Positions 3,390-11,054 of a DNA stretch of 20,966 nucleotides are shown here, in pieces. Within the stretch, counting starts at the first letter, position 1, and every line of letters starts with the position of its first letter. This DNA is from a virus. The DNA lies in IMG/VR virus record IMGVR_UViG_3300031957_001524, positions 1 to 20,966 of that record, one strand, 5' to 3'. The position numbers and the translations under genes are program-made. A model generated the notes under the pieces. It had not been told where the DNA came from, did no database searches, and was given only the letters and a program-made list of their open reading frames with translations.

Positions 3390-5546
3390 TTATAAAGGGA
3401 ACCAATCTATGAAATCTCCCCCTTGAGTTATTATTAAATCTCCATTTTGTGCTTCAATATGATAGAAGATTGGTGATGGAGTTGGTGTCGGAGTTAAGGT
3501 AGCAGTCACACTTGGAGTTAAGGTTGGGGTTACAGAACTTGTAGGTGTTATAGTTGGTGTAACCGTAACAGAAGTTGTTGGTGTAATAGTCGGAGTTACC
3601 GTACTCGTTGGAGTGATACTTGGAGTAGGAGTTGGTGAAGGACATATAATGTTTGTCAATGTGTATGGATATGTCTCACCTGTTATTGTACCCGTAGTTG
3701 GGTAGTAGTATCCATTGTATTCACTGTAGTCAATTGTATTTCTTACAGAGACATTTGTAATACTTTCTGTATCTCCACATGATAGACCACCAGGTGCATA
3801 CCAATTTGACGTATTGACATAGTCAGAACTGAGTTCACTATAACTAATGATGTCATAGATATCACCACCAGTGTTTCTGTAATACAATGATGTAGTTCCT
3901 GTACAAGTGATTGTCAATGTTAAACCTGTATTGGTTATAATAGCATTACCTAAGTAGAAGTAATTACCACTACCTGTATTACCTGTAACATCGTAATTGA
4001 TACATTCAGATGGAACGAATGGTGAACTAGTCGGAGTAGGAGTAACAGTTGTAGTAGGTGTAACCGTATTTGTTGGAGTTATAGATGGTGTAATAGTTGG
4101 AGTCACACTACTGGTTGGTGTCGGTGTTGGTGATGGACATAGACCATTATTAAAATACAATGGTTCGTCAGCTACATCAGGATAATCAATACCAGCACAA
4201 GTTATATCATCCATAAAGTAGTCACTAACAGGAAGCAAGTTAACAACATTACCACAAGCCAGTGTTCCTGAGTTTAGATATCCTACTCTCCAACTTGTAG
4301 AACTTTCGCCAGGATACTTAGCAATGATACCTAAGTTACCCCCTTCTGTATTACCTGTATACATCATATGGTTACCACCACATACAACATTGAAGTTGTT
4401 ACCAGGAGGTGCTGATGTTAAGTAACCTGTTGTCCATGCAAAGTAGTTACCAAGAGGTGATGGTGATTGTGGTGTGTTTTTGTGACATATTGTTTGATAC
4501 AATGTACAATCTTCAGGTGATGGTGTAGGAGTTGGAGTCATACTTGGTGTTGCAGTCGGAGTAGGGGTATTTGAAGGTGGTGGTATTGGTGCTGCAGTTG
4601 GTGATGGTTTCGGGTCAGTACAATCAGTTTTAAAGATATATACGTTACCACTTCTATCTTCTGAGTCATTGGGGTCAAATGTCTTAACCCACCCCTCAGT
4701 TGGTATTACCCATCCATTGTCACTTGTTGTTGGTGCGTATGATACAGCAAAACCACCACTGTTATAAAATATTTGACTTTGTTGTGCTCCACATTCAAAT
4801 GTAGTTCCATCTTGTGAGTACCATATATAATACCCGTTTAATCTTGTACTATCACTGTCAGGATAACCATTATCAAAATAACTCATCATTGGATATATGG
4901 GTTTACCATTAAGGTCTGTTTTTTCTTCTCCAATGTAATATCCATATCTTGTATCACATACCCACTCAAAGTATTCTATATCATCACCTTGATATTGGTC
5001 TTCAGTATATTTCCAATAACCCCATCCACCAAATGTATATGTGTTGTTATAAAACGGAGCATTACCGTTACTGAAGTCAAATGCAACAAGACAATAGTTA
5101 GGGTCAGCTATCGGTGCACTACAAGCATCGAGTATGGTTGGATACGTAACACTTATGTTACAACTTGCACCTACCACATCATCTTGGAACCTCTCTTTGA
5201 ATGGAGTGAATGTGTAGTTAGTTTGTACTTCTATTAAGGGGTCAATAAGTGTGTTGTTAACTCTAGCAATGATATCTCTCATATTATCAATACAATCACT
5301 TTGATTTCTGATAATACTTTGTTCATCATCATTAGACTGAGTCATACAGATGAGGTTGAAATTAAATGTACTTACTCTATCCCCACTTGTGACACTGATG
5401 GGGTTTAAAAATATGTAAGGGTAGTAAGGGGGTTGTTGGTCATCTGGCGTCATGATATCAGAAATGTCACCATAACCAAAGTCATTAATAAAGAAGTGTC
5501 CTTGAACTTTCTGTTTAAATACGTCTATTATTTCTTTGTAAGTCAT
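3390..5546 (-). CDS. Large modular structural protein with three Pro/Thr-rich linkers
   Basis: The protein has 718 residues. Residues 1-145 form a compact N-terminal domain (MTYKEIIDVFKQK, then YPYIFLNPISVTSGDRVSTF and FTPFKERFQDDVVGASCN) that looks like a virion-joining domain. Three globular modules follow (about 146-311, 345-469 and 510-634), separated by low-complexity Pro/Thr/Ser linkers at about 312-344, 470-509 and 635-692. A short tail follows (IEAQNGDLIITQGGDFIDWF). Modules start and end near cysteines (EDC...LCPSP, SEC...IICPSP), which suggests disulfide-closed domains. The layout fits an extended surface appendage: an anchor carrying exposed domains on flexible stalks. The start lies inside the preceding gene (32-base overlap). 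Exact function is unknown; a tail or adhesion role is inference. Confidence 0.7.
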   Translation of the reverse strand: MTYKEIIDVFKQKVQGHFFINDFGYGDISDIMTPDDQQPPYYPYIFLNPISVTSGDRVSTFNFNLICMTQSNDDEQSIIRNQSDCIDNMRDIIARVNNTLIDPLIEVQTNYTFTPFKERFQDDVVGASCNISVTYPTILDACSAPIADPNYCLVAFDFSNGNAPFYNNTYTFGGWGYWKYTEDQYQGDDIEYFEWVCDTRYGYYIGEEKTDLNGKPIYPMMSYFDNGYPDSDSTRLNGYYIWYSQDGTTFECGAQQSQIFYNSGGFAVSYAPTTSDNGWVIPTEGWVKTFDPNDSEDRSGNVYIFKTDCTDPKPSPTAAPIPPPSNTPTPTATPSMTPTPTPSPEDCTLYQTICHKNTPQSPSPLGNYFAWTTGYLTSAPPGNNFNVVCGGNHMMYTGNTEGGNLGIIAKYPGESSTSWRVGYLNSGTLACGNVVNLLPVSDYFMDDITCAGIDYPDVADEPLYFNNGLCPSPTPTPTSSVTPTITPSITPTNTVTPTTTVTPTPTSSPFVPSECINYDVTGNTGSGNYFYLGNAIITNTGLTLTITCTGTTSLYYRNTGGDIYDIISYSELSSDYVNTSNWYAPGGLSCGDTESITNVSVRNTIDYSEYNGYYYPTTGTITGETYPYTLTNIICPSPTPTPSITPTSTVTPTITPTTSVTVTPTITPTSSVTPTLTPSVTATLTPTPTPSPIFYHIEAQNGDLIITQGGDFIDWFPL
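3471..3644 (-). repeat. Coding tandem low-complexity repeat (Pro/Thr linker 3)
   Basis: This stretch encodes residues about 635-692 of the 718-aa protein as degenerate units of the type T-P-T-[ILS]-T-P-[TS]. At DNA level it is a run of units resembling GTAACTCCAACT and ACACCAACAACT. It is the longest of the three linkers. Imperfect tandem units like this can gain or lose copies by slippage. Confidence 0.85.
4020..4139 (-). repeat. Coding tandem low-complexity repeat (Pro/Thr linker 2)
   Basis: This stretch encodes residues about 470-509 (PSPTPTPTSSVTPTITPS, then NTVTPTTTVTPTPTSSP). It shares its unit type and its CPSPTPTP entry with linker 3, so the module-plus-linker blocks may have arisen by duplication. 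Confidence 0.85.
4515..4613 (-). repeat. Coding low-complexity repeat (Pro/Thr linker 1)
   Basis: This stretch encodes residues about 312-344 (PKPSPTAAPIPPPSNTPTP, then TATPSMTPTPTPSP). It is the shortest and least regular of the three linkers, richer in Ala and Pro. Confidence 0.8.
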
Positions 5547-8383: not shown

Positions 8384-8960
8384 AACTTTCTAATATTTTA
8401 GTTTTTAGTATTTTTAATGTTTTATTATCAAATTTAATATCTGTTGTCTTATCTGTAAACATTTTACTTTTTATATGTTCCAACCCCTCTTTGAAATTCT
8501 TCTTTATTGTTGTTCTTGGTATATTTAATCTTCTACTCATCTCAGCAAAGTTTCCTAATGTAAAGTAGAGTAATATTAACATTACATAGTATCTCTCCCT
8601 ATTTGTTCCCTTATACATTTCATCTAAGATGTTTAGGACGTTCTCTATTTGATTATCTTTATCTAAGTCATACTCTACCACCTTTATCTCACTTATCTCT
8701 TTATATTCGACAAGATGTTGTTTCTTGTATAATTTGTAATGGTCAGAACTTTTACTTCTTGATTGGTTGAGGGCTACCCTAACTATGAACCATCGTGCTT
8801 CGTTATTCTCAATTAGTTGTTCAGCTTTTGGATGTTGGATGAATATCATAAGTACCTCATGAAATAAATCCTCCTTAACACTATCGTTTTCGTATTTGAT
8901 AGCCCCCTTTATCCAACCTTTTATCTCTTCATAATTTTTGTTTACCCAATCGTTGACCAT
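8361..8960 (-). CDS. Sigma-70 family-like transcription factor
   Basis: The protein has 199 residues. Residues about 10-80 resemble sigma region 2: KEDLFHEVLMIFIQ corresponds to the 'DlvQEvFlrl' helix, and ARWFIVRVALNQSRS to the 'arayLyriarNlald' DNA-melting helix. Residues about 102-167 resemble region 4, with a helix-turn-helix GNFAEMSRRLNIPRTTIKKN and a following EGLEHIKSKM helix. The layout matches small ECF-type sigma factors. It would redirect host RNA polymerase to phage promoters, probably late ones. The gene lies just downstream of the divergent region holding three copies of a phage-specific promoter element. It overlaps HNH by 19 bases. The region 2 match is clear but not textbook, so a region-4-only regulator is possible. 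Confidence 0.75.
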   Translation of the reverse strand: MVNDWVNKNYEEIKGWIKGAIKYENDSVKEDLFHEVLMIFIQHPKAEQLIENNEARWFIVRVALNQSRSKSSDHYKLYKKQHLVEYKEISEIKVVEYDLDKDNQIENVLNILDEMYKGTNRERYYVMLILLYFTLGNFAEMSRRLNIPRTTIKKNFKEGLEHIKSKMFTDKTTDIKFDNKTLKILKTKILESYGRKTIQ

Positions 8961-9370
8961 GTCTTATGTCTTACCACATCTCTAATGGTTGAGGGGTTAC
9001 AGTCATACTTTGCTGCTAACTTTGCAAATGTGATTGATTCTTTCTCAGCGTATTCTTGTCTAATAGCTTCTGCCTTTTCCATGTTGAGTTTATTGTAACT
9101 CCTCTTTCTTATGTTTTCTTTTTGAGTTATACATTCTAAGTTCTCCAACCTATTGTCTGTTTTATCCTCGTTAATGTGGTTAATTTCCATTCCTAATGGT
9201 ATCTTACCCTTGAAGGTTTCCCATACAAATCTGTGTACATACATTGCTTCTGTACATCCCCCTTCGTAGTAAGCCTTGAATTGTTTATATCCATCTGAAT
9301 GACTATAAGGAGATAGTTTATAACCATCCTCATTATACACGTTACCTTCTTTATCACAATTGTATTCCAT
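8942..9370 (-). CDS. HNH endonuclease with C-terminal helix-turn-helix
   Basis: The protein has 142 residues. The N-terminal part (DKEGNVYNEDGYKLSPY) is a beta-rich start typical of NUMOD4/HNH proteins. The HNH core spans about 44-90: VHRFVWETF, then MEINHINEDKTDNRLENLEC and ITQKENIRK, with the His at about 65, Asn at about 73 and the 'N-L-E' helix expected of HNH_3 proteins. Residues about 97-137 form a helix-turn-helix (FAKLAAKYDCNPSTIRDVV) likely to read DNA. Possible roles are a free-standing homing endonuclease or a packaging-associated nuclease near terminase. It is the first gene of the leftward operon, with a promoter element 17 bases upstream. Confidence 0.88.
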   Translation of the reverse strand: MEYNCDKEGNVYNEDGYKLSPYSHSDGYKQFKAYYEGGCTEAMYVHRFVWETFKGKIPLGMEINHINEDKTDNRLENLECITQKENIRKRSYNKLNMEKAEAIRQEYAEKESITFAKLAAKYDCNPSTIRDVVRHKTWSTIG

Positions 9371-9387
9371 TGTTATATTGTTTAATA

Positions 9388-9427
9388 GTTTATATCAATA
9401 AGTATGTACCTAATATAAAAAAGTCAA
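9388..9427 (-). promoter_or_regulatory. Composite promoter-like element, leftward copy (P-left)
   Basis: On the minus strand: TTGACTTTTT, 13 bases, then TACTTATTGATATAAAC, ending 17 bases before the HNH ATG. TTG and TACTTATT are 20 bases apart, the same spacing as in the two plus-strand copies. Probably drives HNH, the sigma-like gene and the terminase operon. Confidence 0.6.
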
Positions 9428-9453
9428 TTTTCAAAATAATTTTTTTAACTATT

Positions 9454-9490
9454 CAGACTTTTTATTAACTGTGATATACTTATCAAATAC
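9454..9490 (+). promoter_or_regulatory. Composite promoter-like element, rightward copy 1
   Basis: CAGACTTTTT, 13 bases, then TACTTATCAAATAC. It shares ACTTTTT and the 20-base spacing with the other two copies, but has CAG in place of TTG. It faces the gene-free stretch 9491-9690 and would drive a transcript across it. Confidence 0.5.
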
Positions 9491-9514
9491 CGAGTGGATA
9501 CGTGAGTACAGTGC

Positions 9515-9546
9515 AGACACCTTTCTCTCCCCACGAACGATAGATA
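9515..9546 (+). repeat. Direct repeat copy 1 in island
   Basis: AGACACCTTTCT, an 11-base spacer, then CGATAGATA. Both blocks recur exactly at 9648-9673 with a 5-base spacer. Confidence 0.85.
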
Positions 9547-9607
9547 ACATTAGCGAGTATACCTTTGGAAACTTCAGTTGTAATAGCCTGTTTGGAACAG
9601 ATACCTT

Positions 9608-9635
9608 ACCTCTTACTGAGAGGTGTCTTTTCTTG
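9608..9635 (+). terminator. Weak hairpin with T-rich tail, possible terminator
   Basis: ACCTCT-TACTG-AGAGGT (9608-9624) is followed by GTCTTTTCTT. The stem is only six pairs, and its 3' arm can form a 12-pair alternative with 9647-9658, so termination here is uncertain. Confidence 0.3.
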
Positions 9636-9647
9636 CCTACTTCTTTA

Positions 9648-9673
9648 AGACACCTTTCTATTCCCGATAGATA
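9648..9673 (+). repeat. Direct repeat copy 2 in island
   Basis: AGACACCTTTCT, ATTCC, then CGATAGATA: 12 of 12 and 9 of 9 matches to copy 1. The start of this copy also forms the 3' arm of a 12-pair stem with 9618-9629. Confidence 0.85.
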
Positions 9674-9699
9674 TTATTATAAAATAATTTATATATTAT

Positions 9700-9739
9700 T
9701 TGACTTTTTAATAATTCTGTGATATTTATTAGTATAACG
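9700..9739 (+). promoter_or_regulatory. Composite promoter-like element, rightward copy 2
   Basis: TTGACTTTTT, 13 bases, then TATTTATTAGTATAACG, ending 18 bases before the ATG of the 78-aa gene. The layout is the same as the leftward copy at 9388-9427. It most likely drives the 78-aa gene. Confidence 0.6.
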
Positions 9740-9757
9740 ATTTAAACAGTAATACAA

Positions 9758-9994
9758 ATGAGTAACACAAGAAAAGAAGCATTCAGAAGAATGCAAGAAC
9801 TAAAACAACAAAAGATTGGTACAACCAAGATTACAATCCCTCAACCTAAACCAAGAGGTAGAAGAGTTAAACAAGATGAAATCTATTCAGAGATGGTAGA
9901 TAGATTTTGGGATGATGTGGAAAACAAGATGATTGATTTATCACGTTGGAATGGTGAAGGGTCACCTTGGTTATACAGAGAACTCGTAGACTAA
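9758..9994 (+). CDS. Small basic hypothetical protein (78 aa), plus strand
   Basis: The product starts MSNTRKEAFRRMQELKQQK, has a proline- and arginine-rich middle (PQPKPRGRRVKQDE, about 29-42), and ends in a helix-like acidic and aromatic part (MVDRFWDDVENK, LSRWNGEGSPWLYREL). The basic middle suggests nucleic-acid binding, but no known domain is recognised. It is one of only two plus-strand genes in the window and has its own promoter-like element and a strong terminator, so it is an independent transcription unit. It has no Shine-Dalgarno, with ACAGTAATACAA before the ATG. Its opposite orientation and own signals suggest an early or regulatory gene, or a moron-type insertion. Confidence 0.8.
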   Translation: MSNTRKEAFRRMQELKQQKIGTTKITIPQPKPRGRRVKQDEIYSEMVDRFWDDVENKMIDLSRWNGEGSPWLYRELVD

Positions 9995-10021
9995 AGTCTG
10001 CCTATTATTAAGTCTATGAGT
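9982..10021 (+). other. Hairpin over the stop codon of the 78-aa gene
   Basis: ACTCGTAGACT (9982-9992) pairs with AGTCTATGAGT (10011-10021): 11 pairs with one G-U, and an 18-base loop. It covers the TAA of the 78-aa gene and lies directly before the terminator stem, so the mRNA would end in two consecutive hairpins. Confidence 0.55.
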
Positions 10022-10057
10022 GGGGGATAGTTTATAGTTCTATCCCCCTTTTCTTTT
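10022..10057 (+). terminator. Strong Rho-independent terminator after the 78-aa gene
   Basis: GGGGGATAG (10022-10030) and CTATCCCCC (10040-10048) form a perfect 9-pair stem with a 9-base loop, followed by TTTTCTTTT. The T-tract is on the plus-strand side only. Confidence 0.92.
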
Positions 10058-10083
10058 GTCATTTTCTAATTATTATATATTTG
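10055..10083 (+). promoter_or_regulatory. Bacteroidota-type promoter (TTTG, 17 bases, TATATTTG)
   Basis: TTTG at 10055-10058 and TATATTTG at 10076-10083 are 17 bases apart. TATATTTG matches the -7 consensus TAnnTTTG exactly, and TTTG matches the -33 box. Transcription would start near 10088-10090. The TTTG overlaps the end of the preceding terminator's T-tract, giving a back-to-back terminator and promoter. Confidence 0.6.
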
Positions 10084-10087
10084 TTCA

Positions 10088-10195
10088 TGTATTCTAGTAG
10101 GGGGGATGTTCCATTTGTTATGAATCGTTTCTTTAGTATTTTCATTATCCCCCCATTTATTTAAAGACCTCTAAGAACGCTTAGGGGTCTTTTTA
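10088..10195 (+). ncRNA. Candidate ~105-nt small RNA or attenuated leader
   Basis: The stretch begins just after the TATATTTG promoter and ends at an intrinsic terminator. GGGGGGAT (10100-10107) and ATCCCCCC (10147-10154) form a perfect 8-pair long-range stem, with ATGAA/TTCAT (10120-10124 and 10141-10145) inside it. It holds no plausible open reading frame. It could be a free small RNA, or the leader of the 60-aa gene that begins 12 bases after the terminator, in which case the terminator would act as an attenuator. The start site is inferred from the promoter match. Confidence 0.5.
10165..10195 (+). terminator. Intrinsic terminator directly before the 60-aa gene
   Basis: AGACCTCTAAG (10165-10175) and CTTAGGGGTCT (10180-10190) form an 11-pair stem with one G-U and an AACG loop, followed by TTTTATATTT. 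On the other strand the tail is TTTAAAT, so it may also weakly stop leftward transcription from the portal operon. Confidence 0.85.
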
Positions 10196-10206
10196 TATTT
10201 ATTAAT

Positions 10207-10389
10207 ATGAAGAACAATACATTTATATTAGACAAGTTTTTATTTAGAGATACAGGAACAATCTCATTAGACGATTACATGATGGTGCGTCATTTCTTTG
10301 GACGTATGGGTTATGATACATCCAAGAATATTCATTTTCAATTTTGTAAGAAATATGGATTAAAGTACGAAGTTCCTAACGAGAGATGA
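10207..10389 (+). CDS. Small hypothetical protein (60 aa), plus strand
   Basis: The product starts MKNNTFILDKFLFRDTGTIS and continues DDYMMVRHFFGRMGYDTSKN, ending in a basic aromatic helix (FQFCKKYGLKYEVPNER). Its soluble, mixed alpha/beta composition looks like a genuine protein, but I do not recognise the family. The ATG follows directly on an intrinsic terminator with only about 12 bases between, so expression would need readthrough or an unseen start. A TATTTATTAATAT element overlaps the ATG (10196-10208). Its last 30 bases overlap the end of the converging 45-aa gene. Confidence 0.6.
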   Translation: MKNNTFILDKFLFRDTGTISLDDYMMVRHFFGRMGYDTSKNIHFQFCKKYGLKYEVPNER

Positions 10390-10497
10390 TACTTGTTGTT
10401 CTAACGTTGTAATTCGAGCTTCAATAATTTGTATTTGTTGTTGTAACGTGTTTTTGTTAATTTCTCTGTGTTCGTGTATTCTTTTTGTTTGAGACAT
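10360..10497 (-). CDS. Small coiled-coil protein (45 aa) after the connector gene
   Basis: This is a short gene whose ATG (10497) overlaps the stop of the connector gene as TAATG, the same coupling used elsewhere in these operons. The product starts MSQTKRIHEHREINKNTLQQ and continues QIQIIEARITTLEQQVSSLV. From about residue 18 hydrophobic residues recur at heptad spacing (L, I, I, I, L, V, L), so it is probably a coiled coil that oligomerises. Its codons look like those of its neighbours. It is the last gene of the portal operon and may be a small neck or assembly factor; function unknown. It converges on the 60-aa gene with a 30-base overlap. Confidence 0.65.
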   Translation of the reverse strand: MSQTKRIHEHREINKNTLQQQIQIIEARITTLEQQVSSLVRNFVL

Positions 10498-11054
10498 TAA
10501 TTCATTGGATTAGGATTATCAGGAAGATTGTCCCCACATCCATAAGGTTTTGGAATATACACCCCATGGAAATAAGGATTGTTCTTATTCGGCATCATAC
10601 CATCTGTACCAGGGTTTAGGTATTCAGGGAACTGTTCTTGATTATCTCTAATGTATTCTCTAGTTCTTTCACCATAGAATTGTGCTGTGTCTTGTATTGA
10701 CCCCCTAACATATTTTAGTGCAGTTAAATCAGTTGTTGAACTCTCTTCACTTGTTGGTGTTAAAATAGCCTTATTCTTTATCTTATAGTTCAATGAAGGG
10801 AATGCAAGGTAAACTGCATAGTTTGCTAAGGTTGGAGCAATATAGTCGTTTAGAAGAGTCTGATAATAACCTGTAACTGTATCGTTACTTATCTTGGTCT
10901 GTAATGCTTGATAGAATGTTGTACCTAAAATATCTTGTATGTAGATATCTTGTGCTTGAACAACAAAGGGGGTTAACTCTTGTGGTTCAACATTGTCATG
11001 TACTGCTGTTAATTTCTTTAATCTTGCTTCTGATATAAATATTACACTACTCAT
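10497..11054 (-). CDS. Head-tail connector / adaptor-like protein
   Basis: The protein has 185 residues. It starts MSSVIFISEARLKKLTAVHD and continues with helices: PFVVQAQDIYIQDILGTTFY (about 29-48), then YYQTLLNDYIAPTLANYAVY. It ends in a long extended tail rich in Pro, Asn and Gly (NPYFHGVYIPKPYGCGDN). An all-helical body with 'QdiyIqdiLGt.fY..L' resembles DUF6712-like or gp6-type connector proteins of Bacteroidota phages, which sit under the portal. Location directly after the portal gene (ATGA overlap) supports this. The family match is from memory; the structural role is likely. Confidence 0.6.
   Translation of the reverse strand: MSSVIFISEARLKKLTAVHDNVEPQELTPFVVQAQDIYIQDILGTTFYQALQTKISNDTVTGYYQTLLNDYIAPTLANYAVYLAFPSLNYKIKNKAILTPTSEESSTTDLTALKYVRGSIQDTAQFYGERTREYIRDNQEQFPEYLNPGTDGMMPNKNNPYFHGVYIPKPYGCGDNLPDNPNPMN

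Follow-up and report, generated by a model that had tools for sequence, protein, structure and literature searches.

The DNA analysed here (the window) comprises 20,966 bases of viral sequence (IMG/VR record IMGVR_UViG_3300031957_001524); its minus strand carries the structural genes, namely portal, a DUF6712 connector-like protein, capsid protease and terminase. The closest annotated relative of the portal belongs to the Nonlabens phage P12024S (27% identity), a match that fits a Bacteroidota phage, and the hosts of the virus are probably marine-type Bacteroidota bacteria. Also among the structural genes, at 3390-5546, is a 718-aa protein with several PTPTPTS-rich repeat stretches. Between the connector and HNH genes lies a plus-strand island composed of a 78-aa gene, a small RNA unit and a 60-aa gene (Table 1). 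The 78-aa gene has its own promoter and terminator, and the arrangement of the island, inverted and with its own promoters and terminators, reads as moron-like.

Table 1. Features of the plus-strand island and the genes on either side of it (window coordinates)
Feature	Position	Strand	Remarks
HNH gene	8942-9370		
78-aa gene promoter	9699-9728	+	TTTG 9699-9702, GATATTTA 9721-9728
Pairing region on target mRNA	9736-9760	+	AACGATT 9736-9742, ACAAATG 9754-9760
78-aa protein gene (proposed target)	9758-9994	+	just upstream of the unit
Terminator of 78-aa gene	10022-10057	+	GGGGGATAG / CTATCCCCC plus T-tract
Small RNA promoter	10055-10083	+	TTTG 10055-10058, 17-nt spacer, TATATTTG 10076-10083
Predicted small RNA, ~110 nt	10088-10197	+	from promoter/terminator positions, fold z, conservation in 16 contigs
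Main stem, 5' strand GGGGGGATG	10100-10108	+	covaries with 10146-10154 across groups
Unpaired loop, 37 nt (proposed targeting region)	10109-10145	+	
Anti-start segment CATTTGT	10112-10118	+	complements ACAAATG 9754-9760, including the 78-aa AUG
Anti-leader segment AATCGTT	10123-10129	+	complements AACGATT 9736-9742
Main stem, 3' strand TATCCCCCC	10146-10154	+	fold, covariation, pair probability
Intrinsic terminator of small RNA	10163-10195	+	13-pair stem 10163-10192, then T-tract; terminator scan
60-aa gene	10207-10389	+	downstream of the unit, outside the conserved unit
Connector gene	10497-11054		

The first-pass annotation had described the unit as a self-contained small RNA or an attenuator, and the architecture it proposed is borne out. 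The promoter it had named, TTTG-N17-TATATTTG, is present, with the boxes read from the sequence at -33 and -7, and it does begin in the tail of a terminator, as the terminator of the 78-aa gene overlaps the -33 box. That terminator would split the target gene and the small RNA into two transcription units. The flavobacterial sigma-A consensus is TAnnTTTG with a box at -12 to -5 (PMC9723704); because the promoter box agrees with it, the transcription start of the small RNA is estimated at about 10088. The second terminator follows with no gene in between, direct reading having found no ORF between promoter and terminator, and a scan of the 2.5-kb region gave 5 terminators for 1.0 expected. A trans-acting phage sRNA has a promoter and a terminator of its own, and here both are present by consensus match, that is, as predicted transcription. 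The long-range stem, a G-run/C-run hairpin first counted as 8 pairs, has 9 (the 8 plus a G-U), with pair probabilities of 0.998-1.0 in the ensemble fold. The RNA folds at -36.8 kcal/mol, as compared with -20.7 ± 3.1 kcal/mol for dinucleotide shuffles (z -5.28, 0/200).

Relatives were gathered among IMG/VR contigs by searches with the connector, 60-aa and 78-aa proteins. The unit is conserved in 16 related contigs, which fall, the window included, into eight sequence groups: A (the window and L002-L004), B (L005, L006, L055), C (L007-L010), D (L012), E (L013, L014), F (L015), G (L011) and H (L016). They represent one phage clade, known from metagenomic contigs, with six independent leader/loop groups. 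Further searches, started from the 60-aa protein or from the 78-aa family in its wider sense, produced no new group carrying the small RNA, and among 50,697 phage records none had similar DNA or the 78-aa protein. The hairpin was found in every one of the 16 contigs, and in groups A-F, for which the reading extended upstream of the unit, it follows a TTTG/TATATTT-type promoter. The length to the terminator varies from 95 to 164 nt, and a separate small RNA terminator is found in all groups but B, in which the hairpin directly precedes the 60-aa homologue. An outer stem is present in the six groups C-H (for example TGTTGGCA/TGCCAACA in C and TATTGGAT/ATCCAATA in D) and lost in A and B. The GC-rich main stem holds a loop of 27-50 nt, and linker lengths vary freely. 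In one group B contig, L055, the main stem has two mismatches (GGCGGAGTG against CCCTCCCCC) and the anti-start segment TATTCATAATAT is intact; this unit is possibly a decaying or structurally relaxed copy.

Compensatory base changes in homologs, a test set beforehand, were found. In the main and outer stems together, 12 of the 17 pairs are changed on both sides (24 cells), a covariation score reached by none of 500 shuffles, and sliding the stem partners by 1-3 columns leaves 0-3 double-changed pairs. MAFFT cannot align the loops, and the stems were anchored by hand for this count. Since the structure guided this alignment, the proportion of stem cells that are paired (90.7%) is biased upward, and the double changes carry more weight as evidence. 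The comparison shows that the unit is a real structured RNA. With the whole unit, promoter included, recurring in related phages and both stems covarying, the proposal of a self-contained phage small RNA is strongly supported. Two conserved stems, and a position between the portal/connector and terminase gene blocks, would also suit a structural or packaging RNA of the pRNA kind, acting by its fold instead of by base pairing. The outer stem is however lost in A and B, the linkers vary freely in length, and nothing in the loop is conserved except its complementarity to the neighbouring leader (see below), which makes such a role extremely improbable.

The other half of the first proposal, an attenuator or switch controlling the 60-aa gene, did not hold up. 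The unit does precede it in four groups (A, B, F and G), and in B the hairpin is directly its leader, but after the fully conserved RNA of the other four (C, D, E and H) the gene is absent, and therefore it cannot be the conserved target. Pairing of the C-run with GGGG in the terminator arm, the basis of the suggested switch, can be written, but when forced it gives -12.0 against -36.8 kcal/mol and has an ensemble probability of 0; the suggested comparison of the two states thus leaves the alternative about 25 kcal/mol worse than the hairpin state. Attenuators and riboswitches are recognized by a competing terminator-containing fold and a gene consistently downstream, neither of which was found here, and we regard this explanation as very unlikely.

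Unpaired segments of the small RNA are complementary to the leader and AUG of the 78-aa gene, which is located on the other side of the unit and had not been considered as a target in the first-pass annotation. The complementarity was first seen in the window and in L007 and then tested on all groups; the contigs of groups G and H end before the 78-aa gene, leaving six groups with leaders. In all six, one of the two best blocks lies on the AUG and the other between -26 and -10: ACAAATG and AACGATT in A (ATAACGATTA in L004), ATATTATGAATA and CAAATACA in B, AAACTATTAAACAT and ATGAGTAA in C, ATATAAACATTTAAA and ATGAGTAA in D, ACTATAAAAC and ATGAGTA in E, and ACAAATGGA and ATAACTT in F. The sRNA segment used for pairing differs between groups, CAAATACA of B pairing with the 5' tail and ATGAGTAA of C with the 3' linker. 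The equivalents of the anti-start segment follow the start context, with ATGAATA matched by TATTCAT in B, ATGAGTAA by TTACTCAT in C and D, ATGAGTA by TACTCAT in E, and ATGGA by TCCAT in F; ATGGA occurs as the gene start only in group F, and TCCAT lies in the loop of that group. The leader block has a mismatch in L003. Conserved partial complementarity to an mRNA start, a hallmark of trans-acting phage sRNAs, is therefore present.

To compare all loops with all leaders, we used duplex energies and counts of exact Watson-Crick blocks. The true assignment totals -98.8 kcal/mol against a mean of -62.5 and is surpassed by none of the 720 permutations, and it again ranks first of 720 in the block count, with either the window or L004 standing for group A. 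The loops of C and D cross-react. Dinucleotide shuffling gave p values of 0.069 for the window, 0.045 for L004, 0.022 for B, 0.001 for each of C, D and E, and 0.004 for F, and the 78-aa start is first by z among the gene starts of the contig in 6 of 7 contigs (z to -5.7). Pairing energies corrected for accessibility range from -6.8 to -17.2 kcal/mol, the target site being nearly open and the opening costs small; they were obtained from duplex plus opening energies, because contacts between a hairpin loop and another strand lie beyond what RNAcofold can model. When sites are ranked by raw energy, the 78-aa start is surpassed by many coding sites that are richer in GC, and scans of whole contigs or of all ATGs are dominated by GC-rich coding sequence and hence do not discriminate. 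For this reason the case rests on the composition-corrected and between-group tests. For the two groups without leaders we predict that of G to contain roughly ACAAATG preceded by a complement of TTACAACGTT, and that of H to be complementary to TGTTATCTAATAGTTT.

The window itself is the weakest case (7+7 pairs, p 0.07), the 78-aa start being only third of its 25 gene starts, and the ranking took in the gene starts of phage contigs. Both points would agree with a phage small RNA that has host mRNAs as its real targets and matches the neighbouring leader incidentally or secondarily. We consider this quite unlikely, because an incidental match would not track the leader of the neighbour across six diverged groups and rank first of 720 twice. 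A cis element is also conceivable, in which transcription reads through the 78-aa terminator and the loop of the 3' hairpin pairs with the 5' leader and AUG of the very mRNA that contains it. The two partners are on the same strand and close (~350 nt), and their complementarity co-varies just as a cis pairing would. A strong terminator nevertheless intervenes in every group, and a cis element needs neither the conserved promoter nor the terminator that the unit has of its own (the latter missing in B); on balance this arrangement is unlikely, and an RNA acting in trans on the 78-aa mRNA is the reading we prefer.

The 78-aa protein belongs to no known family, having no match in Pfam, PHROG, NCBIfam or PADLOC and no relatives in GTDB genomes, and a PDB sequence search returned insignificant hits only. 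It is charged and soluble-looking, and its AlphaFold model (pLDDT 62, pTM 0.28) is too poor for a structure search. The relatives have boxes similar to those of its promoter, and hairpins equivalent to its terminator are found in all groups. Around its stop codon the window holds another hairpin (9983-10020, CTCGTAGACT / AGTCTATGAG), whose arms appear by eye to co-vary (TGGTTGACT/AGTCAACCA in B, GTTATCGACTA/TAGTCGGTAAC in L053) and which also occurs in phages lacking the small RNA. More distant 78-aa genes (L046, L050-L054 and L123-L126) have a plain terminator in place of the unit, and because the gene exists without the unit in these phages, repression would not be essential to it. In L126 (4000-4540), the 78-aa gene is followed by a plain GGGGGGATG...CCCCCCATTTTT terminator and then by a 60-aa homologue, possibly the ancestral order without the small RNA. 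This intervening terminator, GGGGGGATGTAAAAGTCCCCCCATTTTT, resembles the group A stem, and we may speculate that the unit arose from such a terminator by expansion of its loop with antisense sequence.

Another conserved plus-strand element, noncoding and about 190 nt long, separates the HNH gene from the promoter of the 78-aa gene (9484-9690) and is preceded by a TATATTTA-type box. It is 69-76% identical in L007, L010, L013/L014, L046 and L126, is missing from the close relatives L003/L004, and has no match in Rfam. The element contains two near-identical (A)ACACCTTTYT..CCC copies (9515-9532 and 9648-9665), both of which can pair with one complementary strand (9618-9629), and from locus to locus the copies and this strand vary in concert, the behaviour expected of a two-state switch.

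Computation on this locus reveals a conserved unit, covarying stems and a complementarity that co-varies with one target. The most probable interpretation, which we hold with good though incomplete confidence, is that the unit encodes a trans-acting phage sRNA that represses initiation of the upstream 78-aa gene in a host that does without Shine-Dalgarno signals. The small RNA would be transcribed from its own host-type (sigma-A) promoter and end at its own terminator, and the GC-rich stem would hold the 27-50-nt loop open. This loop, or in some groups the 5' tail or 3' linker, would then form two blocks of base pairs with the 78-aa mRNA, in its leader and at its AUG; the start of this mRNA is estimated at about 9733, giving a leader of about 25 nt. 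The median leader of flavobacterial mRNAs is 24 nt long, and their promoters are of the TAnnTTTG type (PMC9723704). Initiation requires an unstructured A-rich region around the AUG, not a Shine-Dalgarno sequence, and is tuned by leader structure (PMC6847099). Because Bacteroidota ribosomes need an unstructured A-rich leader and start codon instead of Shine-Dalgarno pairing, covering the leader together with the AUG, from near the 5' end of the mRNA, should block initiation, and since the RNA can cover the ~25-nt leader up to the AUG, repression of 78-aa synthesis is a straightforward prediction. We infer that both RNAs are made and meet in trans with a repressive effect.

The proposed mechanism has counterparts among known phage RNAs. 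The c4 RNA of P1/P7 is a structured phage RNA whose loops pair around the ribosome-binding site of a neighbouring gene and block its translation (PMC12197685). As in c4 (RF01695), loop segments here are complementary to the initiation region of the target, but the target of c4 is the ant mRNA in phages of Proteobacteria, on which it masks a Shine-Dalgarno site, whereas the unit described here covers leader and AUG. Moreover, c4 is processed out of the leader of the very transcript it targets, while our unit sits downstream of its target with its own promoter and terminator. No link to an ant or antirepressor gene, which characterizes c4, was found, the 78-aa gene having no family match. The Rfam c4 model gave no match at E <= 5 in 9300-10600, and Rfam as a whole none that reached the gathering threshold, either in the window or in seven related loci. 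The best weak hits, to the L20 leader (E 0.04), RmaA (0.13) and ncr1241 (3.5), fall far short of their gathering scores and seem to reflect composition or terminator resemblance.

Sar of P22 is a 68/69 nt phage RNA with its own promoter that pairs with the ant mRNA and inhibits its translation, and the 77-nt OOP RNA of lambda, with promoter and terminator, regulates a neighbouring gene by pairing (PMC12197685). Both differ from the present case, in which target and sRNA are separate, same-strand sequences with imperfect, co-evolving pairing (unlike Sar), and the unit does not overlap its target (unlike the cis-encoded OOP). Sar is encoded opposite the arc-ant junction, so that its pairing is perfect by necessity, and OOP fully overlaps cII and works through RNase III. 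A cis-encoded antisense RNA of this kind was rejected, as the unit is on the strand of its target, ~330 bp downstream of the target start. A type I toxin-antitoxin system likewise combines a small gene with an adjacent RNA that blocks translation, as proposed here; the 78-aa protein differs in being charged and soluble-looking and in occurring without the RNA in related phages, and this class was rejected too, since its genes are always accompanied by their antitoxin RNA and the unit is missing from the distant loci listed above. The unit would thus work like c4 and Sar, but it belongs to neither family and is unrelated to them, because it has no Rfam match, a different gene, no overlap and its own transcription unit.

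The antisense RNAs known for phages are mostly those of enterobacterial phages and of Shine-Dalgarno hosts, and a 2025 review has no Bacteroidota example (PMC12197685); in the open-access literature we found no RNA of this type reported for phages of Bacteroidota. Tentatively, the unit could represent a new sRNA family of hosts lacking Shine-Dalgarno signals, with a rapidly evolving two-block guide presented by a stem and matched to its target by co-evolution, although we would not yet call this the likelier outcome. As the RNA of every group is best matched to the leader of that group, the sRNA could silence the gene copy of a competing phage in a type-specific manner. If our interpretation is true, these Bacteroidota phages hold a naturally co-evolving RNA-target pair, which would show sRNA silencing of a gene in bacteria without Shine-Dalgarno signals. 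The six independent guide/leader pairs would then be a ready-made specificity series, and a set of orthogonal translational repressors for the genetics of Flavobacteria and Bacteroides.
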